From Bacteroidaceae bacterium (GTDB lineage Bacteria > Bacteroidota > Bacteroidia > Bacteroidales > Bacteroidaceae), in contig JAGAZE010000011.1 of the NCBI GenBank assembly GCA_017940185.1, positions 1-34,881 on the forward strand: a stretch of 34,881 nucleotides of DNA, given 5' to 3'. The notes below the pieces were generated by a model that searched no databases, had not been told where the DNA came from, and worked only from the letters and a program-made list of their open reading frames with translations. Made by a program: the position numbers and the translations under genes. The number at the start of each line of letters is the position of its first letter. Within the stretch, counting starts at the first letter, position 1. Below are positions 10,903 through 32,925 of this stretch, piece by piece.

Positions 10903-11469
10903 TCAGCGCGGTAGAATTGTCATGGGGTCGGCAAGTCCGTGTATGATGGCATAGAGTGTGAGTCCTGCAGCGGATTTGACGTTAAGTTTCTGCGTGATAT
11001 TTTTGCGGTGCGTTATTACTGTCGTGAGGCTTATGTGGAGCTCGTCTGCTATTTCCTTATTTATCATTCCCTTCACCACGCATTGCAGCACCTCACGTTC
11101 TCTTGGCGTGAGGGGTGATGGTAGATGATGAGTGGTGGGTGATGGGTGATAGTGTCCTTGGCGCATCATCTGCAGCAAGTCTTGCACAATACTGTTGGCG
11201 GGCTGGCTAACATCTAGCGTGGGTTGTGCATATTGTGTCGACTTTTGTGTAGTGAGCACGATTGTTCTCTGCGTAGGCAGTGAGGTGGTGGGCGGTGGCA
11301 TGAGACATTCATCGACAAAGAGATGCCCCACAGGCGTCGTGAGTTGCTGCTCTGCCTCTGCCCATGAAGCAAACGTAGCGATATTGATGGCCGGCATCAC
11401 CTGTTGTACCAATGCGTGCAGTCCTAGTGCGGTGAGAGCATTGGGTGTTATGATGGCAAGATGAATCAT
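10903..11469 (-). CDS. LuxR/NarL-type regulator with a degenerate receiver-like domain
   Basis: A 188-residue predicted transcription factor. The C-terminal third (about 119-180) is a LuxR helix-turn-helix: LTPREREVLQCVVKGMINKEIA, then LTTVITHRKNITQKL. The N-terminal ~100 residues resemble a response-regulator receiver in length and layout, but lack the acidic pair after strand 1 (ITPN instead) and a clear phospho-acceptor and lysine, so normal phosphorylation is unlikely. The linker (about 106-119) is rich in His, Pro and Thr and is encoded by imperfect CATCACC-like repeats. The ATG at 11469 overlaps the miaA stop as ATGA. Upstream extension into miaA is unlikely. It lies just upstream of rhaB, so regulation of rhamnose genes is possible but unproven. 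Its tail resembles that of the regulator at 29958-30914. Confidence 0.85.
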   Translation of the reverse strand: MIHLAIITPNALTALGLHALVQQVMPAINIATFASWAEAEQQLTTPVGHLFVDECLMPPPTTSLPTQRTIVLTTQKSTQYAQPTLDVSQPANSIVQDLLQMMRQGHYHPSPTTHHLPSPLTPREREVLQCVVKGMINKEIADELHISLTTVITHRKNITQKLNVKSAAGLTLYAIIHGLADPMTILPR

Positions 11470-12473
11470 GATGAGTGGATGGTATTGATTATGAGCTTTA
11501 CTTTGTCTTCCGTTGGCATGGCATAGTCTATCCATTGGATGTGAGTTCCTCTTCGTTGCATGCCCCGGAAGTAGGTCATCTGTCGTTTGGCGAACTGGTG
11601 AATGGCAATCTCCAATTGACTAACCATCTGCTGATAGGATAGTTGCCCGATGATATATTGCGTGATGTAGCGATATTCCAATCCGTAGTAGATGAGTTGC
11701 TGTGGTGTACATCCTTCGTTGAGCAGTTGTTGCACCTCATCTACCATGCCATCTTCAAGTCGCTGCTTCAGGCGCTGTGTGATGCGTTGCCGGCGCGTGT
11801 CGCGATCGATGTCAATGCCTATGACCACTCCATTGTACCTACTTCCCTGCTCACCCCGTTCTATAACGGATGCCGCCAAAACGCCATACGGTTTGCTCCC
11901 CTCCTTGCCTTTGCCTTCCGCCGGCGACTTTAGGGTGCCCTCCCCTCTCTGCTCTTTCAAGATGAACTCCTCTATTTCTATTGCTCTGATGGCTCGTTGC
12001 TTGGTGTCGACATCAGTGCGATTGTGCATTACTGTGCCGTTGTTTTCCTTCAACTGCTGGAGCATCGTGGTGAGTTCTGCCAATGAATACTGCTCCAGCC
12101 TTTGCCGCAGTGCGGGGTTTTGTGGCACTGTGGGGAGGTTGTAATTGCGGAGCACTGATTCGATGTACAGTCCGCTGCCTCCGCAGAGTATGGCTGTGCG
12201 CTGTTGCTGCTGCAGGCTAGCGTAGACCTCTCTAAAGTCGTGCTGATATCGGTATACGTTGTACTTCTCTCCGGGCTCACAGATGTCGATGAGGTGGCAT
12301 GGTATGCGGACACCATTATATATATAGTCGTCGAGATCTTTGCCTGTGCCTATGTCCATTCTTCTGTAGACCTGTCGCGAGTCGGCACTGATAATGTCTG
12401 CGTTGAGCTTTGCCGCCAGCGCTACCGCCAATTGCGTCTTTCCGCACGCGGTGGGTCCAAGGATGGTAATCAT
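11466..12473 (-). CDS. miaA: tRNA dimethylallyltransferase, with an unusual internal insert
   Basis: Adds a dimethylallyl group to A37 of tRNAs reading UNN codons. The 335-residue protein has the P-loop GPTACGKT at 6-13, DSRQVYRRMDIGTGK (31-45), CHLID, LCGGSGLYIE, and NRTDVDTKQRAIRAIEI in the middle, all MiaA hallmarks. The C-terminal part has AIHQFAKRQMTYFRG, the usual RQ-TW/F-RG block. Residues about 174-212 form a Gly/Glu/Lys/Ser-rich insert, where the family normally runs straight from the alpha-helix to the strand ending GIDIDRDTRRQRI. The gene lies 6 nt after ugd and overlaps the LuxR-type gene by 4 nt. Function should be retained because the insert is in a surface loop. Confidence 0.95.
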   Translation of the reverse strand: MITILGPTACGKTQLAVALAAKLNADIISADSRQVYRRMDIGTGKDLDDYIYNGVRIPCHLIDICEPGEKYNVYRYQHDFREVYASLQQQQRTAILCGGSGLYIESVLRNYNLPTVPQNPALRQRLEQYSLAELTTMLQQLKENNGTVMHNRTDVDTKQRAIRAIEIEEFILKEQRGEGTLKSPAEGKGKEGSKPYGVLAASVIERGEQGSRYNGVVIGIDIDRDTRRQRITQRLKQRLEDGMVDEVQQLLNEGCTPQQLIYYGLEYRYITQYIIGQLSYQQMVSQLEIAIHQFAKRQMTYFRGMQRRGTHIQWIDYAMPTEDKVKLIINTIHSS

Positions 12474-12479
12474 TATTTG

Positions 12480-13853
12480 TCAGTTGGTTTTCGTCCGACG
12501 TTCTGTTTTACCACCGATGCAGTGGTATTCCACTTCTGCTTCTTGCAGTTCCTGCGCCTCGTAGATATTGCGTCCGTCGATGACCAATGCCCTTCTCATG
12601 TTTTGCTTGAGGTGTGGCCAGTCGGGCAGTCGGAACTCCTTCCATTCGGTGAGCAGCAGCAGTGCATCGGCACCATCGATGGCTTCGTATTTGTTTTTGC
12701 TGAACAATAGTTGCCTGTCGAGAATTTGCTGTCCGTCTTCTCTAAGCATCATCCGCCGCTTGCATTCAGGCATTGCCACAGGGTCGTAGGCTCGGATTGT
12801 GCATCCTGCCTTGAGCAGCAAGTCGATGATTACGAGGGAAGGAGCCTCACGCATATCGTCGGTTTCGGGTTTAAAGGAGAGTCCCCATAGGGCAATGGTT
12901 TTTCCCTTGAGCTCCTCGGGAGCATAGGCCGCCACGAGCTTGTCGAAGAGTATACGCTTCTGACGCTCATTGACACGCTCCACAGCTTGCAACACCTGCA
13001 TGTCGTAGTGTTGTTCGGTAGCAGTTCGGATGAGCGCCTTCACATCTTTGGGGAAACAAGACCCTCCATATCCACAACCTGGATAGAGGAATTTGCGCCC
13101 AATGCGAGTGTCGCTACCAATTCCTGCTCGTACCATATTGACATCGGCACCGAGCAGTTCGCACAAGTTGGCAATGTCGTTCATGAAAGAGATGCGCGTG
13201 GCCAACATCGCATTGGCGGCGTATTTGGTCATCTCCGCACTAGGAATGTCCATAAAGAGTACGCGGAAATTGTTGAGCAGGAAGGGCTTGTAAAGACGTG
13301 TGAGTAGTTTGCGAGCGCGTTCACTCTCCACACCCACTACCACTCGGTCGGGGCTCATAAAGTCTTTCACAGCACATCCTTCCTTAAGAAACTCCGGATT
13401 GCTCGCCACATCGAAGGGGATATCAGCGCCTCGCTCGTGCAACTCTTCCTGTATGGCTTGCTTGACGAGACGTGATGTGCCAACGGGAACGGTGCTCTTC
13501 ATCACCACGACAATATATTTGTTGATGTGGCGTCCTATTGTACGGGCCACTTGCAACACATATTTAAGGTCGGCAGAGCCGTCTTCGTCTGGTGGCGTCC
13601 CAACGGCACAGAACACGAGTTGCTGCTGATTGAGGACGGTCTCGAGTTGTGTGTGGAAATGTAGCCGTCCGGCTTGCACATTCTTCTTCACCAGTTCGTC
13701 GAGGCCTGGCTCGTAGATAGGTATTTCGCCCTGCTTGAGGCGTTCAATCTTGTTGGCATCTACGTCAATGCATGTCACTGTGGCTCCCGTCTCGGCAAAA
13801 CATGCTCCAGAAACGAGGCCTACATATCCAGTTCCTACTATTGCTATCTTCAT
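12480..13853 (-). CDS. ugd: UDP-glucose 6-dehydrogenase
   Basis: Oxidises UDP-glucose to UDP-glucuronate with two NAD+, for capsule or other surface glycans. The 457-residue protein has the NAD-binding IVGTGYVGLVSGACFAE at residue 5, VAVKSTVPVGT-like block VVMKSTVPVGTS (116-127), NPEFLKEGCAVKDF, MTKYAANAMLATRISFMNDIA, and the catalytic GYGGSCFPKD with Cys266. The C-terminal domain has GLSFKPETDDMREAPS. The order ugd-miaA, 6 nt apart, is tight. It follows rfbC by 125 nt; the gap is purine-rich on the plus strand (pyrimidine-rich in mRNA) and shows no promoter. UDP-mannose/GlcNAc dehydrogenase relatives were considered, but the sequence fits TuaD/Ugd best. Confidence 0.93.
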   Translation of the reverse strand: MKIAIVGTGYVGLVSGACFAETGATVTCIDVDANKIERLKQGEIPIYEPGLDELVKKNVQAGRLHFHTQLETVLNQQQLVFCAVGTPPDEDGSADLKYVLQVARTIGRHINKYIVVVMKSTVPVGTSRLVKQAIQEELHERGADIPFDVASNPEFLKEGCAVKDFMSPDRVVVGVESERARKLLTRLYKPFLLNNFRVLFMDIPSAEMTKYAANAMLATRISFMNDIANLCELLGADVNMVRAGIGSDTRIGRKFLYPGCGYGGSCFPKDVKALIRTATEQHYDMQVLQAVERVNERQKRILFDKLVAAYAPEELKGKTIALWGLSFKPETDDMREAPSLVIIDLLLKAGCTIRAYDPVAMPECKRRMMLREDGQQILDRQLLFSKNKYEAIDGADALLLLTEWKEFRLPDWPHLKQNMRRALVIDGRNIYEAQELQEAEVEYHCIGGKTERRTKTN

Positions 13854-17891: not shown

Positions 17892-17926
17892 AATGTGAAA
17901 GGTTTAAAAGATGAATGTGCACCAAC

Positions 17927-17990
17927 AAAAAAACACGCGCAGACGGCACTTAGGCAAGCATCGTTGCAAGCCGCAGGCCATGGCGTGTGT
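17927..17990 (-). promoter_or_regulatory. Possible attenuator in the TonB-receptor leader
   Basis: In the ~130-nt leader, ACACACGC (minus strand of 17983-17990) can pair with GCGCGTGT (17933-17940) with one A-C mismatch. It is followed directly by seven T (17927-17933). The long inner loop makes this a weak terminator on its own. Whether it attenuates is untested. Confidence 0.3.
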
Positions 17991-18029
17991 GGAGAAGCAT
18001 GGGTAAGCATACCATTTTTTTATGCACGG

Positions 18030-18061
18030 CAAAGGTACAATGCATTTACCATTGGCGCAAG
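18030..18061 (-). promoter_or_regulatory. Promoter of the TonB-receptor gene
   Basis: The minus strand has -7 TACCTTTG (18030-18037) and a near-consensus -33 CTTG (18058-18061), spacer 20 nt. Predicted start is near 18023, which leaves about 132 nt of leader. A short CAATG/CATTG inverted repeat (18038-18042 and 18050-18054) lies in the spacer. Confidence 0.7.
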
Positions 18062-18130
18062 AGCAAACTCCGATTTTTTTGCATCATACAAAAAAAATAC
18101 CGCAAAAGCGAAAGATTGTCAATTTGTCAC

Positions 18131-18138
18131 TACCTTTG
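18131..18138 (+). promoter_or_regulatory. -7 box of the lplA-gcv operon promoter
   Basis: TACCTTTG matches TAnnTTTG; I see no clear -33 TTTG at the right distance. Predicted transcription start near 18145, about 32 nt before the lplA ATG. It is divergent from the TonB-receptor promoter about 90 nt away. Confidence 0.65.
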
Positions 18139-18176
18139 TAGCCTATCTGAACCTATACACATCTCTCGTCAGCAGT

Positions 18177-19151
18177 ATGCGCTACGTACATCTCCCCCAC
18201 TCCGCCACCCCACGGCAGCTGCCCTTCTATCTCGCTGCCGAAGAGTATGTAGCCCGACAGTTGCCGCCAGCCGAATACTTCTTCCTCTGGCAGGTGAAGC
18301 CTTCGGTGATTTTCGGGCGCAATCAGGTGGCACAGCGCGAGGTCAACATTGCCTACTGTCGCCAACAAGGCATCGACATGTGGCGGCGCAAGAGCGGCGG
18401 AGGATGCGTGTATGCCGACATGGGCAACATCATGCTCTCCTATATCATACCAGGCGAGCAGGTGCGTCTCACGTTCAACCATTATGTCAGCCTGTTGGCT
18501 CTCGTGCTTGGCAAGATGGGCATAGAGGCGAAGCCCACGGGGCGCAACGACGTGCTCATCGACGGACGCAAAGTGTCGGGCAATGCGTTCTTCCATCTGC
18601 CGGGACGCAACATCGTACATGGCACATTGCTCTACGACACATGCATGGAGCACATGACCGCCGCCATCACGCCGCCGAAGCAGAAGCTGGAGAGCAAGGG
18701 TGTGAGCAGTGTGCGGCAGCACATCACCACCCTGCGAGAGCACACTGCGCTTAGCATTGAGGAGGTAAAGGCTCTCATTAAGACGACACTGTGTCGCGAC
18801 AGCATCGAGCTGACTCCTGCCGATGTGGCACAGATAGAAGCCATAGAGGCGGATTACCACTTGCCCGACTTTATCTTTGGTCTCAACCCACGCTACAACG
18901 TCACTCGTCAGGCACGCCTCGAGGGTGTGGGCGACATTGAGGTGAGCCTCGCCGTGAAAGGCAATGTGATAGAAGATGTCAACATGGTGGGCGACTTCTT
19001 CCTCACAGGCGATATCGAGCAGCAACTCATACAGCCGCTACGTGGATGCCCACTGACCCCAGAAGCACTCCACAACGCCCTGCCCGACGACATCGGCGAC
19101 ACTATCATGAACATGAAGAAACAACAACTCATCGACATCATACTACAATAA
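18177..19151 (+). CDS. lplA: Lipoate-protein ligase A
   Basis: Attaches lipoate to the lysine of lipoyl domains via lipoyl-AMP. The 324-residue protein has the family blocks: VIFGRNQ (44-50), RRKSGGGCVYADMGN (70-84), GRNDVLIDGRKVSGNA with catalytic-position Lys132, and HGTLLYD. A C-terminal accessory domain follows, as in long-form LplA. I chose the ATG at 18177 because the open frame upstream (from 17895) runs through the predicted promoter at 18131-18138. It starts the operon, 21 nt before gcvT, so its most likely target is the GcvH protein two genes downstream. Octanoyltransferase activity cannot be excluded. Confidence 0.93.
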   Translation: MRYVHLPHSATPRQLPFYLAAEEYVARQLPPAEYFFLWQVKPSVIFGRNQVAQREVNIAYCRQQGIDMWRRKSGGGCVYADMGNIMLSYIIPGEQVRLTFNHYVSLLALVLGKMGIEAKPTGRNDVLIDGRKVSGNAFFHLPGRNIVHGTLLYDTCMEHMTAAITPPKQKLESKGVSSVRQHITTLREHTALSIEEVKALIKTTLCRDSIELTPADVAQIEAIEADYHLPDFIFGLNPRYNVTRQARLEGVGDIEVSLAVKGNVIEDVNMVGDFFLTGDIEQQLIQPLRGCPLTPEALHNALPDDIGDTIMNMKKQQLIDIILQ

Positions 19152-20718: not shown

Positions 20719-20765
20719 GAAAGGGGAAGTCCGCCGACCGACACAATGCACGGGCTTTCCCTTTC
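20719..20765 (+). other. Hairpin between gcvH and gcvPA
   Basis: GAAAGGGGAAG (20719-20729) pairs with CTTTCCCTTTC (20755-20765), 11 bp with one G-U wobble, over a 25-nt loop. No T-run follows, so it is unlikely to terminate. It could stabilise the upstream message and give more H protein than P protein. Confidence 0.5.
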
Positions 20766-20796
20766 TGTCATCAATCACAACTCAATCAGTAACACG

Positions 20797-22119
20797 ATGA
20801 ATTACAAATTCTTCCCACACACCGCTGAGGATCTCGACAAGATGTTGCACACCGCCGGTGTCACCGACATACAGCAGCTCTTCAAAGAGATTCCCTCACA
20901 CCTTATATATAATAAGGAGTACAACATTCCTTCTGCCATGAGCGAGATAGAGCTCCGCAAACACTTCGATAGTCTGGGCAATAAGAACAAGACCCTGACC
21001 ATATTCGCAGGAGCCGGAGCCTACGACCACTACACTCCCTCTGCCATTCCCAACCTCGTACAGCGCTCGGAGTTCCTCACCAGCTACACTCCCTATCAGG
21101 CGGAAATATCGCAAGGCACACTCCACTACATCTTCGAGTACCAGTCGATGATGACAATGCTCACCGGCATGGATATCTCCAATGCATCGATGTACGACGG
21201 TGCCACCGCCACTGCCGAGGCTGCCATTATGGCACTGCACAACGCAAAAAAAGCCGACACCATTCTGATGTCGTCGACGGTCGACGACAAAGTGCGCAAG
21301 GTGGTCGACACCTATGCCCACTTCCACGGCTTCAACATCAAGACCATTGCCGAAGCCAACGGTGCCACCAGCAAGGCCGATCTCGAGCAGCAGATGCAGG
21401 CTGGCGGCGTGGCAGGCGTTATTGTACAGCAGCCCAACAAGTATGGCAACATCGAAGACTTCAGCGGCTATGCCGACACATGCCACGCCAACAAGGCGCT
21501 TTTCATCATCAATAGCGTTATTGCCGACCTGGCCTTGCTGAAGACTCCCGGAGAATGGGGTGCCGATGTAGCCGTCGGCGACTCGCAGTCGCTGGGCATT
21601 CCCCTCTCCTTCGGCGGACCCTACGTAGGCTATATGTGCGTCACCGAGAAGCTGATGCGCAAGATGCCGGGGCGTATTGTCGGCGCCACACAGGACAACC
21701 GTGGCAACCGCGCCTTCGTGCTCACCCTGCAGGCACGCGAACAGCACATCCGCAGACAGAAAGCCACATCCAACATCTGCTCCAATCAGAGCCTCATGGC
21801 ACTGTGGGTGACCATCTACCTGAGCATCATGGGTAAGGAAGGACTCAAGCAAGCAGCACAGATGTCCTTCGACGGAGCACACTATCTGCAGCAGCAACTT
21901 CTGGCAACGGGACGCTTCACAGCCACCCACACCCAACCGTTCTTCAACGAATTCTGCCTCGACTTCAACGGCGACGCCGACAAGCTGCAGCAACACCTCA
22001 CCGACAACGGCATCATGGGCGGAGTGAAGATGGGCGACAACACCATCATGTTCGCTGTGACGGAAAAGAGAACAAAAGAGGAGATGGATCAACTCGTCAG
22101 CCTCATCAAGAACTTTTAA
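20797..22119 (+). CDS. gcvPA: Glycine dehydrogenase (decarboxylating) subunit 1
   Basis: N-terminal half of the split P protein; with GcvPB it forms the PLP-dependent glycine decarboxylase. The 440-residue protein fits GcvPA: FIGAGAYDHYTPSAIP-type segment (FAGAGAYDHYTPSAIP), YTPYQAEISQGTLHYIFEYQS, GMDISNASMYDGATATAEA, GDSQSLGIPLSFGGPYVGYM, MPGRIVG and TLQAREQHIRRQKATSNIC. No PLP lysine, as expected; it lies in GcvPB. I chose the ATG at 20797 (MNYKFF); an in-frame ATG at 20746 lies inside the hairpin region and adds a non-family segment. Gap to gcvPB is 15 nt. Confidence 0.96.
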   Translation: MNYKFFPHTAEDLDKMLHTAGVTDIQQLFKEIPSHLIYNKEYNIPSAMSEIELRKHFDSLGNKNKTLTIFAGAGAYDHYTPSAIPNLVQRSEFLTSYTPYQAEISQGTLHYIFEYQSMMTMLTGMDISNASMYDGATATAEAAIMALHNAKKADTILMSSTVDDKVRKVVDTYAHFHGFNIKTIAEANGATSKADLEQQMQAGGVAGVIVQQPNKYGNIEDFSGYADTCHANKALFIINSVIADLALLKTPGEWGADVAVGDSQSLGIPLSFGGPYVGYMCVTEKLMRKMPGRIVGATQDNRGNRAFVLTLQAREQHIRRQKATSNICSNQSLMALWVTIYLSIMGKEGLKQAAQMSFDGAHYLQQQLLATGRFTATHTQPFFNEFCLDFNGDADKLQQHLTDNGIMGGVKMGDNTIMFAVTEKRTKEEMDQLVSLIKNF

Positions 22120-22134
22120 TAAACGACACATACC

Positions 22135-23610
22135 ATGAACAACAAATTATACGGCAATCTTATTTTCGAATTCACCCGTCCTGGCCGCCAAGCCTATTCC
22201 TTGCCACAGCAAGAGGTGCCACACACCGATCTGCCTGCCGCCATGCGCAGAACGGAAGACGCGCCGCTGCCTGAATGCGACGAACTCACCGTGGTGCGAC
22301 ACTACACCAACCACAGCCAGAACAACTTCGGTGTCAACAACGGTTTCTACCCACTCGGCAGCTGCACCATGAAGTACAACCCCATCATCAATGAGGAGAT
22401 GTCGACACTGCCTCAGTTTGCACAGCTACACCCCATGCAGGACATCAACACATGTCAGGGTGCCCTTGAGCTGTACTACAATCTGCAGCGCATGCTCTCC
22501 GAACTCTCCGGACTGAGCGAGTTCACCCTCAATCCCTTTGCAGGCGCTCACGGAGAGCTCACCGGACTGATGATCATACGCTCCTATCATGAGAAGCGTG
22601 GCGACAGCAAGCGCACCAAGGTCATCGTGCCCGACTCCGCCCACGGCACCAATCCCGCATCGGCAGCGGTATGCGGACTCGACATCCTCGAGGTGAAGAG
22701 CACCAAGGACGGCCTCGTCGACGTCGACGACCTCAAGACACTGCTCCAGACGGAAGGTGAAAACATCGCTGCCATGATGATGACCAACCCCAACACGCTC
22801 GGACTCTTCGAACAGCAGATACCGGAGATTGAAAAGATGATACACGATTGCGGCGGACTGATGTACTACGACGGTGCCAACTTCAACCCGCTGCTCGGCG
22901 TAGCGCGCCCGGGCGACATGGGATTCGACGTGATGCACATCAACCTGCACAAGACCTTCTCCACTCCTCACGGCGGTGGTGGTCCCGGCAGCGGACCCGT
23001 AGGCGTGAGACAAGGACTTGAGGAGTTCCTTCCCACACCGCGCATCGTCAAGAATGGCGACCACTACGCAGTGGAAGGTCTCAACGAAGGCCACTCCGTA
23101 GGTGCTTTCTTCGGCAACTTCGCCGTCATGATGCGCGCCTATGCCTACATCCTTACCCTCGGCAAGGAGAATATCAAGATGGTCGGACCCCTCGCTACGC
23201 TCAATGCCAACTACATCAAGGAGTCGCTCAAAGACGACTTCGAACTGCCCATCGACGTCGTTTGCAAACACGAGTTTGTTTTCGACGGACTGAAGGACAA
23301 GAGCACAGGCGTCACCACCATGGATGTCGCCAAGCGTCTGCTCGACTACGGCTTCCACGCGCCTACCATCTACTTCCCCCTTCTTTTCCATGAAGCACTG
23401 ATGGTGGAACCCACCGAGAACGAGAGCATCGACACACTCGACAGCTTCATCAACGTGATGCACACCATCGCCAAGGAAGCCCGCGAGACTCCTGATGTCG
23501 TGAAGGAAGCTCCGCACAACACGCCCATCGGACGCGTCGACGACGTGCTGGCAGCCAAGAATCCCATACTCACATACACTCAACTCGCCAACCAACATGC
23601 AGAAAACTGA
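22135..23610 (+). CDS. gcvPB: Glycine dehydrogenase (decarboxylating) subunit 2
   Basis: PLP-binding half of split glycine decarboxylase. The 491-residue protein has FYPLGSCTMKYNP (72-84), PFAGAHGELTGL, PDSAHGTNPASAA, MMTNPNTLGLFE, MYYDGANFNP, and HINLHKTFSTPHGGGGPGSGP where Lys273 should carry PLP. Its 3' end overlaps the start of lpd by 14 nt in a different frame, so translation is likely coupled. Full length for the family. Confidence 0.97.
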   Translation: MNNKLYGNLIFEFTRPGRQAYSLPQQEVPHTDLPAAMRRTEDAPLPECDELTVVRHYTNHSQNNFGVNNGFYPLGSCTMKYNPIINEEMSTLPQFAQLHPMQDINTCQGALELYYNLQRMLSELSGLSEFTLNPFAGAHGELTGLMIIRSYHEKRGDSKRTKVIVPDSAHGTNPASAAVCGLDILEVKSTKDGLVDVDDLKTLLQTEGENIAAMMMTNPNTLGLFEQQIPEIEKMIHDCGGLMYYDGANFNPLLGVARPGDMGFDVMHINLHKTFSTPHGGGGPGSGPVGVRQGLEEFLPTPRIVKNGDHYAVEGLNEGHSVGAFFGNFAVMMRAYAYILTLGKENIKMVGPLATLNANYIKESLKDDFELPIDVVCKHEFVFDGLKDKSTGVTTMDVAKRLLDYGFHAPTIYFPLLFHEALMVEPTENESIDTLDSFINVMHTIAKEARETPDVVKEAPHNTPIGRVDDVLAAKNPILTYTQLANQHAEN

Positions 23611-24934
23611 TCTTATCATCATAGGCAGCGGTCCCGGCGGCTACCGCGCAGCCCACTATGCTGCCACCCACGGACTGACGGTGACCATCATCGAACGTCA
23701 GCATGCCGGCGGCACATGCCTCAATTGCGGATGCATTCCCACCAAGACGCTCGTCAAGAACGCCGAAGTGATGCACACCCTGAAGGAGGCGGAGGTCTAC
23801 GGCATCGACAACCTGAGCTACACCGTCAACTTCGGCAAGATGATGGAGCGCAAGAATCAAGTCGTTCAGACACTGCGCAGCGGTGTGGAGACACTGCTCG
23901 CCACACCTGGCATCACCTTGGTGCGCGGCGAGGCGCGCTTCGTCGACAAGAAAGTGGTGGAGGTAGACGGCGAACATTACACCGCCGACAACATCATCAT
24001 CGCCACGGGTTCGAGCGCCAAGCTCATCCCCGTCGACGGCATCGACTTGCCGCACGTACTCACCTCAACCGAACTGCTCGACATCGACCACATCCCCCAG
24101 CGGCTGTGCATTGTCGGAGCCGGCGTCATCGGCATGGAGTTCGCTTCGGTCTTCAATGCCCTTGGCAGTCAGGTCACCGTGGTCGAGTTTCTCAAGGAAT
24201 GCCTCCCCGCCCTCGACAGCGACATTGCCAAGCGTCTGCGTCAGGCGCTCGGCAAACAGGGTGTGCAGTTCTGCATGCAGGCCGGCGTGAAGGCCATCAC
24301 CAAGGATGCCGTCGTCTTTGAGCGCAAAGGCAAGGAGGAACAGGTAGAAGCCGATGTCGTGCTGGTGGCCACGGGCCGTAAAGCCAACATTGAAGGACTC
24401 AACCTCGAAGCCTGCGGCGTGGAAACATCGCGCATGGGCATCACCGTCGACGACAATATGCAGACCAACGTGCCCGGCATCTACGCCATCGGCGATGTCA
24501 ACGCCCGCATGATGCTCGCCCACGCAGCCACCTTCCAAGGCTTGCGCGCCGTCAACCACATTCTCGGCAAGAAGGACAACATACGTCTCGACATCATTCC
24601 GTCGGCCATCTTCACACTGCCCGAAGCCGGTGGTGTGGGCCTTACGGAAGAGCAGTGCAAGGCACAGGGGCTGGCCTACACATGCAAGAAGGGCTACTAC
24701 CGCGCCAACGGAAAAGCACTCGCCATGAATGAAGCCGAAGGACTGGTAAAAATCCTCGCCGACAACGACGGACGCATACTCGGATGCCACATCTATGGTG
24801 CCCATGCTGCCGACCTCGTGCAGGAAATCAGCACACTCATGGCTACCGACGTCAACATCCATCAGCTGGCCGACACAGTGCACACACATCCCACCATAGG
24901 TGAGATACTGCAAGAAGTGGCGGAACAGTTCTGA
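23597..24934 (+). CDS. lpdA: Dihydrolipoyl dehydrogenase (L protein)
   Basis: FAD enzyme that reoxidises dihydrolipoyl-GcvH with NAD+. The 445-residue protein has the FAD-binding IIGSGPGGYRAAHYA at residue 8, the redox pair in GTCLNCGCIPTKT (Cys41 and Cys46, with an extra Cys44 between), an NAD-binding GAGVIGMEFASVFNALG, the second FAD block YAIGDVNARMMLAHAA, and the C-terminal HTHPTIGE active-site motif. It is the last gene of the gcv operon, so it is the L protein of this complex; use by another 2-oxoacid dehydrogenase is possible. A terminator follows 16 nt after the stop. Confidence 0.96.
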   Translation: MQKTDLIIIGSGPGGYRAAHYAATHGLTVTIIERQHAGGTCLNCGCIPTKTLVKNAEVMHTLKEAEVYGIDNLSYTVNFGKMMERKNQVVQTLRSGVETLLATPGITLVRGEARFVDKKVVEVDGEHYTADNIIIATGSSAKLIPVDGIDLPHVLTSTELLDIDHIPQRLCIVGAGVIGMEFASVFNALGSQVTVVEFLKECLPALDSDIAKRLRQALGKQGVQFCMQAGVKAITKDAVVFERKGKEEQVEADVVLVATGRKANIEGLNLEACGVETSRMGITVDDNMQTNVPGIYAIGDVNARMMLAHAATFQGLRAVNHILGKKDNIRLDIIPSAIFTLPEAGGVGLTEEQCKAQGLAYTCKKGYYRANGKALAMNEAEGLVKILADNDGRILGCHIYGAHAADLVQEISTLMATDVNIHQLADTVHTHPTIGEILQEVAEQF

Positions 24935-29957: not shown

Positions 29958-30914
29958 CTACAGTTCCACGCTGCTGATGTCCACCAGTTTGTTGACTATG
30001 GCATAGATGGTGAGTCCTGCCGGTGAGTGTATCTGCAGCTTTCGCGCTATGTTGCGCCGGTGTGTGATGACGGTGTTGGGCGATATGTAGAGATGGTCGG
30101 CTATCTCCTTGTTGGTCATGCCCTGCACCACGCCCACTATCACATCTTTCTCGCGCTGCGAGAGTTCTTCCTGTCGGTCGCTGTTGATGCCTATCATGTG
30201 CGAGATCTTGGTTGTCACGTCGTTGTGGCGCAGTTCTTGCTCCAGCTGTTGTATGGCGGGGATGAAGATATGGTCTTCCACTTCGGCGTGCTGTGTGAGC
30301 CACTCTTCGTTGTTGTAGATGTCGTAGAGTGTGGCCGAGAGCTGGTTGTTGGTGCGTGCGTCGGCGGGCAGGTATTTTATGATGATGCTTTTCAGTTCGC
30401 GCAGCTGCTTGTCGGTAGCGCTGTGGTGCTTGGAGAAGGTCTCTATGTTGAAGTCGTTGCGCACTTCGCCCTGCAGCAGCTGTTCCACGTAGGGGAACAC
30501 CGTGCGCTCTTCGTACTTCATGTGTGTGCGTATGCTGCGCGCATACTCGTCGTAGAGTCGCAGGATGAGCCGGCCCAGGTTGCTGTCGGTGTTGATGGCC
30601 TCTTGCAGTTCGCGCCTGATGAAGGGCAGCTGGAAGTCGAGATAGTAGGTGTGGCTGGCGCGCAGGTATTGCAGCAGCGTGGGCACGGAGAGGCGATGGG
30701 CGTCGTCGGGGTTGTGGAAGCCGTTGATGGTGAAGTTGACAACGGCCAGAAAGGTGTAGGTGTCTACATCTTGTTCCTCGCACACCTCGCGCACCGTCTT
30801 GTCGCCGAAACCCAGACTGATACCGAACGAGCCGAGGCTCTGCAGCACGTTGTAGTTGTCGCGAATGAGCACTATCATCTTGTCGTCGGGCTCATACATC
30901 TTCTGATTTTTCAT
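29958..30914 (-). CDS. YtfE/RIC-like di-iron hemerythrin domain fused to a LuxR DNA-binding domain
   Basis: A 318-residue protein of three parts. Residues about 8-65 resemble the N-terminal domain of ScdA/YtfE (repair of iron centres), but the conserved CysCys is replaced by LGFG at 34-37. Residues about 78-230 form a hemerythrin-like helical bundle with candidate iron ligands His88, His131, Glu135 (HxxxE), His163 or 164, His209 and Glu213 (HxxxE). From my knowledge of the family, this spacing is very close to that of E. coli YtfE. Residues 251-318 are a LuxR helix-turn-helix (LSQREKDVIVGVVQGMTNKEIA, then NTVITHRRNIARKL). The layout points to a transcription factor that senses O2, NO or redox state through a di-iron site; this is inference. 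It sits 58 nt after the MBL gene, with mutAB next. Confidence 0.85.
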   Translation of the reverse strand: MKNQKMYEPDDKMIVLIRDNYNVLQSLGSFGISLGFGDKTVREVCEEQDVDTYTFLAVVNFTINGFHNPDDAHRLSVPTLLQYLRASHTYYLDFQLPFIRRELQEAINTDSNLGRLILRLYDEYARSIRTHMKYEERTVFPYVEQLLQGEVRNDFNIETFSKHHSATDKQLRELKSIIIKYLPADARTNNQLSATLYDIYNNEEWLTQHAEVEDHIFIPAIQQLEQELRHNDVTTKISHMIGINSDRQEELSQREKDVIVGVVQGMTNKEIADHLYISPNTVITHRRNIARKLQIHSPAGLTIYAIVNKLVDISSVEL

Positions 30915-32544: not shown

Positions 32545-32925
32545 TTACATGTCGTCGAAAATTGCAGCAGCCTTCTTCAAGTCGGGATCGTCTTCCAGCT
32601 CCTTCATGGCAGGAATCTCTTCAAGTGAGCTCATGTCCTGCATCAGAGTGGAGAACTCCTGGAAGTCCTTACCCTGCATTACTTCCAGAGCCTTGGTGGG
32701 ATCGTCCTTGGCACCGTTGAGAGCAGTCTTGAATTTCTCAACGACAGGCTTCACTGCATCGAGGAAAGCAAGCATCTTTTCCTTCAGCTGAGCCTTGTCC
32801 ATGCTGGCACCCTTCTCTTTGAGCTCCTTCATAATTTCCTTAGCCTTGTCGATACCGCCGCTTTGGCACGATACCATGCAAATGCTCACCAGTGCAATGA
32901 ACATTCCGAGAATTACTTTTTTCAT
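32545..32925 (-). CDS. Small predicted lipoprotein, hypothetical
   Basis: A 126-residue protein with a lipoprotein signal (MKKVILGMFIALVSICMVSC) and lipobox MVSC, so Cys20 should be lipidated. The mature part is highly charged, Lys/Glu/Asp-rich, and predicted helical (for example AKEIMKELKEKGASMDKAQLKEKM), with no family I recognise. It is a single-gene unit with the best promoter in the window (full -7 and -33 match) and a strong terminator, which suggests high expression. Base composition is like its neighbours. Function unknown. Confidence 0.85.
   Translation of the reverse strand: MKKVILGMFIALVSICMVSCQSGGIDKAKEIMKELKEKGASMDKAQLKEKMLAFLDAVKPVVEKFKTALNGAKDDPTKALEVMQGKDFQEFSTLMQDMSSLEEIPAMKELEDDPDLKKAAAIFDDM

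Follow-up and report, generated by a model that had tools for sequence, protein, structure and literature searches.

A fused RIC-like di-iron and LuxR-type protein of Prevotella sensu lato as a candidate activator of the iron-limitation response

The closest described systems are operons of a hemerythrin-domain gene and the gene of the regulator CdhR, viz. PG1236-37 of Porphyromonas gingivalis and BT0519-20 of Bacteroides thetaiotaomicron; according to a figure legend the operon is fused in P. intermedia (PMC10434189), and the architecture treated here is therefore not new. Upon iron depletion, PG1236-37 rose ca. 7-fold and BT0519-20 16–20-fold; at low iron, flavodoxin rose 326-fold and DUF2023 598-fold in B. 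thetaiotaomicron, flavodoxin/DUF2023 rose 159–164-fold in a second species, and a strong iron stimulon shared by Bacteroidetes was described (PMC10434189). The accessible part of that paper calls the mechanism of CdhR regulation unclear and iron binding not demonstrated; it does not contain the words motif, promoter or binding site, holds no ligand analysis, and gives no induction value naming the fused P. intermedia gene. The present analysis concerns a fused gene of this kind, that of protein P0001 (positions 29958–30914, minus strand), in a stretch of 34,881 nucleotides (the window; contig JAGAZE010000011.1 of assembly GCA_017940185.1). An earlier note, made from the letters of the window, knew of no characterised example in this group; this is corrected by the work on CdhR in P. 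gingivalis and by the P. intermedia fusion (PMC10434189).

P0001 is virtually certain to be a regulator and is read here, with a probability of roughly 0.6, as a one-component system that activates transcription in response to iron limitation. It quite probably governs an iron-limitation regulon through a 22-bp dyad; iron occupancy is the favoured signal, by a modest measure, and the chances are even that the iron-free form is the active one. With iron plentiful, the iron-loaded domain would hold the helix-turn-helix inactive; with iron scarce, the emptied domain would free it for DNA binding, and the freed helix-turn-helix would sit on the dyad, ca. 46 bp ahead of the transcription start, from where RNA polymerase would be recruited. 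It would thereby switch on feoAB, the flavodoxin operon and TonB-receptor genes; most relatives would control their own gene as well. What is new, judged by sequence, is a defined dyad with fixed promoter geometry before the regulator, feoAB and the flavodoxin operon; searches of an open-access library found no published operator for the hemerythrin–LuxR system. The features of the window that are needed are as follows.

29958..30914, minus strand: P0001, fused RIC-like di-iron and NarL-type LuxR helix-turn-helix regulator (open frame, Pfam, NCBIfam)
30690..30914, minus strand: ScdA_N-like N-terminal stretch, residues 1–75, boundary approximate (profile aligned with ScdA from position 6 on)
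30252..30674, minus strand: hemerythrin-type di-iron domain, residues 81–221 (Pfam PF01814, ligand conservation)
30000..30167, minus strand: GerE/LuxR helix-turn-helix, residues 250–305 (Pfam PF00196, 64.3 bits)
10903..11535, minus strand: second LuxR-type protein, 210 amino acids (Pfam GerE; BLASTP, 37/68 identical to the P0001 helix-turn-helix)

The P0001 gene is an uninterrupted frame from ATG to stop (318 amino acids). Pfam placed Hemerythrin on residues 81–221 (49.7 bits; cut-off 25.3) and GerE, the NarL/FixJ-type output, on residues 250–305 well above its cut-off of 23.5; neither ScdA_N nor a receiver domain, as in NarL/FixJ response regulators, was matched at E ≤ 1. The RIC model TIGR03652 of NCBIfam spans residues 37–219 with 62.4 bits, under its equivalog cut-off of 204.7; in the whole genome of the window it gave a single match, which does not pass. 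A profile of 27 relatives, run against PDB sequences, found ScdA over positions 6–220 (E 8.6e-13) and YtfE over positions 76–221 (E 3.6e-8). The union of ScdA/YtfE-like, hemerythrin and LuxR parts in one frame, as the note had it, was thus upheld by the open frame, Pfam and the profile match to ScdA. The genome has 2.09 Mb in 52 contigs and is 89% complete. Among the best 80 named loci related to P0001, four carry only the names Bacteroidales or Bacteroidaceae and 76 carry Prevotella-type names, part of them genera which we take to be split from Prevotella; because of these 76, the carrier is assigned to Prevotella sensu lato.

Ligand spacing in P0001 is H88(x42)H131(x3)E135(x28)H164(x44)H209(x3)E213, that in YtfE H84(x44)H129(x3)E133(x26)H160(x43)H204(x3)E208 (PMC8117158); at the sequence level, P0001 has the six RIC ligands in YtfE spacing, as had been claimed. 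All six are present in 80/80 sequences (P0001 and 79 of the best 80 named loci; L129, absent from this comparison, was covered by alignment A4, in which they are invariant in 41/41). The survey across Bacteroidales that had been proposed gave 112 rows (57 fused, 55 unfused), and the ligands are kept in all except L039 and the truncated L031 and L048. L039 (genome G056, contig 13) belongs to a second hemerythrin–LuxR pair; its hemerythrin part retains just one of the six ligands and is perhaps a pseudo-sensor. H163 is retained in 74/80 sequences compared; of the two histidines H163/H164 offered earlier, H164 is the ligand. Since the profile alignment sets H88 one residue off YtfE H84, the equivalence of these two rests on invariance. 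The hemerythrin-type domain of P0001 presumably binds two irons.

The sole cysteine of P0001, C45, on which the note is silent, is invariant in the 80 sequences and present in 56/56 fused and 54/54 unfused rows that reach it. LGFG (residues 34–37) stands at the place of the vicinal cysteines of YtfE in 80/80 sequences compared, as the note had seen. Scanning of the first 60 residues of the 57 fused and 55 unfused rows gave three with CC, each time away from the position of the YtfE pair; L031 and L048 are incomplete in this region. Because unfused relatives lack CysCys too, its loss is not tied to the gain of a DNA-binding domain, and the link drawn between the two in the note is lost. The place of YtfE E125 is Glu in 51/55 unfused and 35/57 fused rows and Ser (S127) in P0001; that of E159 is variable in the family and is H163 in P0001. 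Iron release by YtfE is reportedly controlled by E125 and E159 (PMC8117158).

Most of the Prevotella loci tested have, ahead of the fused gene, a 22-bp dyad TACCTAn-nn-nTAGGTA whose distance from the −7 box is constant. Within the upstream regions of 78 named Prevotella loci and the window, AAATACCTA was common to 37/79 and absent from shuffles; TACCTA on either strand lay within 300 nt in 65/79, and 42 nt ahead of a −7 box (TTTTG or CTTTG, as in the Bacteroidetes −7 consensus) in 46/79. In 46/46 of the latter, position +10 is T and positions +15 to +18 read ATTG; these positions were outside the selection criteria. The dyad resembles 7-2-7 NarL sites, the paired-heptamer form of the NarL consensus, and is presumably bound by the P0001 helix-turn-helix; its centre is ca. 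46 bp before the expected transcription start, a position as for an activator. Dyads were also found upstream of the unfused hemerythrin–LuxR pair in five families (f1, f9, f22, f60, f106). Among unfused relatives, the symmetric form is AATACCTA-TATG-TAGGTATT in L038 and AATCCC-GGGATT in L084. A score matrix was built solely from the 46 self sites, with 13.7 bits, the 1% level, as threshold; 62/76 self genes passed and 4/482 other genes of the same loci, among them one flavodoxin and one cytochrome c assembly gene (by eye).

With this matrix, 21/28 feoAB upstream regions passed (in-gene control 0/28; two further loci had no located start); compared with the 4/482 other genes, p is 1.5e-27. Flavodoxin/DUF2023 operons passed in 15/23 cases at 10.8 bits and in 11/23 at 13.7 (control 0/23), 6 of the 8 misses being without a located flavodoxin start; an earlier test that used the DUF2023 start as reference point found 6/23, because some of the genomes have flavodoxin at the head of the operon. 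The dyad-to-TTTG distance of the self promoters, 24 nt, recurred in 11/13 flavodoxin promoters; in feoAB promoters it was mostly 42, 50 or 51. In 61 genomes the exact pattern gave 28 sites in 22 genomes (reversed-pattern control 0), 11 of them self promoters and at least 3 of the remainder inside genes; among 40 genes picked for lying behind sites are 8 TonB plugs, 3 FeoAB, 3 TetR, 2 flavodoxins and 2 M16 peptidases. In the window's own genome, a 28.0-bit site with an imperfect −7 box (by eye) lies 66 nt before DUF2023 of the flavodoxin operon (dyad at 97143–97162 of contig 38), and a 15.3-bit site at −120 of feoAB (dyad at 12919–12938 of contig 43).

Over the whole order, the 272 genomes with the gene gave 483 dyad matches (control 157) and the 121 genomes without it 72 (control 62); at least one match was found in 150/272 genomes with the gene (control 96/272) and in 37/121 without (control 36/121). 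The dyad is enriched over control in genomes with the regulator and hardly in genomes without. A strong dyad, AATACCTAAAAGCAGGTATT, was observed in the window's own genome (G000) at 42714-42733 of contig 42 (L209); to neither side of it does a gene begin in the 350 bp that follow.

A hemerythrin-part match is present in 272/393 genomes of the order, a match at 1e-20 in 91/101 genomes of the family (many genera fused, others unfused), and a near full-length fused protein in 31/36 genomes of the window's genus, its own included; in a class-wide search, matches outside the order scored much lower and are probably ordinary RIC proteins. Of 59 gene-bearing loci fetched by place, 22 were fused and 37 had an adjacent LuxR gene on the same strand, without exception, so that hemerythrin and LuxR parts share one operon or frame as in CdhR-type systems (a 60th locus, L123, taken at a guessed place, holds neither form). 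The unfused genes overlap or sit within a few tens of bases; two loci from family f20 have the reverse order, LuxR before hemerythrin. The unfused partner, of ca. 200 amino acids, has a receiver-like stretch, often with Asn at the place of the phosphate-accepting Asp (by eye), before the helix-turn-helix; in the two partners tested, Pfam did not recognise this stretch at E ≤ 0.01. Most other groups of Bacteroidales covered here thus have the helix-turn-helix of the fusion in a separate gene next door. Judging by this comparison, the fusion has dropped the receiver-like stretch of a CdhR-type partner.

On a tree of 112 rows, at least 9 changes between fused and unfused states were counted, 3 of them forced by well-supported branches. 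A single clade of all fused forms was rejected by the approximately unbiased (AU) test (p 1e-59; 83-row subset, quick tree), and the Prevotella-type fusion therefore arose independently of the one in genus g9 (family f9). For the fused forms outside f9, one common origin was not rejected on the same subset (p 0.399). The state changed at least twice. Prevotella-type fused genes binned to other families were observed in L035 (f19), L066 and L067 (f5), L068 (f56) and L069 (f111); the tree places the fused genes of these families inside the genus g1 clade, and transfer or misbinned contigs may account for them.

Several results speak against P0001 as an iron-responsive activator that acts through the dyad. 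Just 37/112 upstream regions (12/55 unfused) exceed the best of 336 shuffles, and no dyad was found in deep families such as f2, f3, f4, f6, f97 and f103. Upstream of the window's fused gene and of its nearest relative, L003, the matrix found no match, so that the gene seems not to be self-controlled through the dyad in this species; the window as a whole has no match over 5 bits. The genome's own feoAB site exceeds the 1% level, yet the best shuffle scores higher (16.3 bits), and the relaxed pattern gave 13 matches in this genome versus 6 in the control. No fused gene was found in genome G022 (81% complete), which has a weak flavodoxin site, or in genome G013 (84% complete), where feoAB and flavodoxin sites are kept. 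As the sequences are related, the counts are not independent and the p values overstate. CdhR of P. gingivalis also represses mfa1 and luxS (PMC4082711), and lower cdhR expression under microaerophilic conditions (PMC10101095) does not suit an iron-only view. That expression result would agree with a di-iron domain that senses NO or O2 and reaches iron genes because reactive gases damage iron proteins, as would the action of YtfE and ScdA, its closest characterised relatives, under nitrosative and oxidative stress (PMC9268430) and the flavodoxin and hcp-looking gene (by eye) upstream on the other strand in L100. Gas sensing is nevertheless considered unlikely: the genes behind the dyad are those of iron limitation (feoAB, flavodoxin, TonB receptors, TetR regulators), and the published induction of the relatives follows iron depletion, in anaerobes (PMC10434189). 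The note had proposed a switch from repair protein to sensor of NO, O2 or iron; the change to a sensor-regulator is supported, and of the three signals iron is favoured by the operator, the likely targets and the neighbours.

The dyad might be bound by another regulator, P0001 controlling other genes. One candidate is the second LuxR-type protein (10903–11535), encoded ca. 19 kb from the P0001 gene beside a tRNA isopentenyltransferase gene whose frame it overlaps: although a more distant relative, it is 54% identical in the helix-turn-helix (37/68) with almost the same recognition helix, its relatives adjoin the fused gene in 12/34 loci of the genus, genome G013 has such a LuxR, and the window's fused gene is without the dyad. 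Against it, the dyad precedes the hemerythrin–LuxR pair in unfused genomes of five families, its enrichment tracks the hemerythrin part, and a feoAB site is present in 20/24 genomes with a P0001-type gene versus 1/4 without (p 0.04); this explanation is judged slightly less likely still than gas sensing. It is very improbable that the domain has kept the role of iron donor or repair enzyme, with a helix-turn-helix that regulates only its own supply or has no regulatory role. The significant sequence relation to RIC proteins and the six ligands would suit such an enzyme; the score below the RIC cut-off, the absent CysCys, the S127 and H163 of P0001 at places that vary in the family, and the strict linkage to a DNA-binding domain in 59 loci do not. 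Control of iron-limitation genes by P0001 is accordingly retained as the preferred explanation.

As to neighbours, 22/112 loci from 7/31 families have feoAB no more than 6 kb from the gene, and 14 of these 22 loci belong to genus g9. Flavodoxin or DUF2023 is as close as this to the pair in just 5/112 loci, and its link to the pair is therefore the dyad and not the neighbourhood; in L099 and L100 flavodoxin adjoins the pair, in a layout as for BT0516-0520. L027 (genome G042, contig 78) has two hemerythrin–LuxR pairs in tandem, and genes of flavodoxin and DUF2023 come after them. Genes of imelysin, di-haem oxidoreductase and porin recur upstream on the opposite strand; in many loci of the window's genus (e.g. 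L050, L051, L052) they form a divergent porin–imelysin–di-haem oxidoreductase cluster, and the dyad, where present, is between this cluster and the fused gene. In the window, the gene 58 bp upstream of the P0001 gene (30973–32007, minus strand) encodes a protein of the metallo-beta-lactamase fold whose start is signal-like (weak Pfam); in L003 the upstream gene is that of a small lipoprotein resembling window 32545–32925, and the metallo-beta-lactamase-fold gene was therefore recently gained or lost. A promoter and terminator scan around the P0001 gene gave 1 promoter candidate (shuffle mean 2.1), with no promoter signal exceeding shuffles, and Rfam gave 0 matches on the whole window, in which TACCTA alone occurs at chance level (5 found, 4.56 expected). 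Genes of lipoate ligase, a two-part glycine dehydrogenase and a dihydrolipoamide-dehydrogenase-like protein stand in a row (20746–24934 and 17895–19151, plus strand), an ordinary set.

A wider proposal, put somewhat short of even odds, is that Bacteroidales have their main activator under iron limitation in the RIC-derived hemerythrin–LuxR system, paired or fused; with a Fur-like role, it would read iron by di-iron occupancy and use a NarL-type dyad to act on feoAB, flavodoxin, TonB-receptor and TetR genes. If this is true, a metal-repair enzyme has been recruited as an iron sensor, and the fusion names its signalling partner. The defined dyad with its fixed promoter geometry makes the mechanism of CdhR regulation directly testable.

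Among known systems, the CdhR operon (PG1236-PG1237, BT0519-0520, PIN17_RS10465 of P. intermedia) is like P0001 in joining hemerythrin and LuxR parts, fused in P. intermedia (PMC10434189); the likeness is one of published gene layout. The RIC proteins YtfE and ScdA share with P0001 the two-part layout and the H-H-x3-E-H-H-x3-E ligands; P0001 differs by the lack of CysCys, the new and invariant C45, the changed E125 and E159 places, the fused helix-turn-helix and a score far below the TIGR03652 cut-off. NarL/FixJ response regulators have the same GerE helix-turn-helix, and the NarL heptamer pair is like the 7-2-7 dyad; unlike them, P0001 has no receiver. A hemerythrin-like domain serves as a sensor in animal FBXL5, which matches the profile weakly (E 0.0025), and in the VC1216-type diguanylate cyclase and DcrH-Hr (PMC10101095); P0001 would differ from these three by its DNA-binding output and by two Glu as bridging ligands, as in YtfE.
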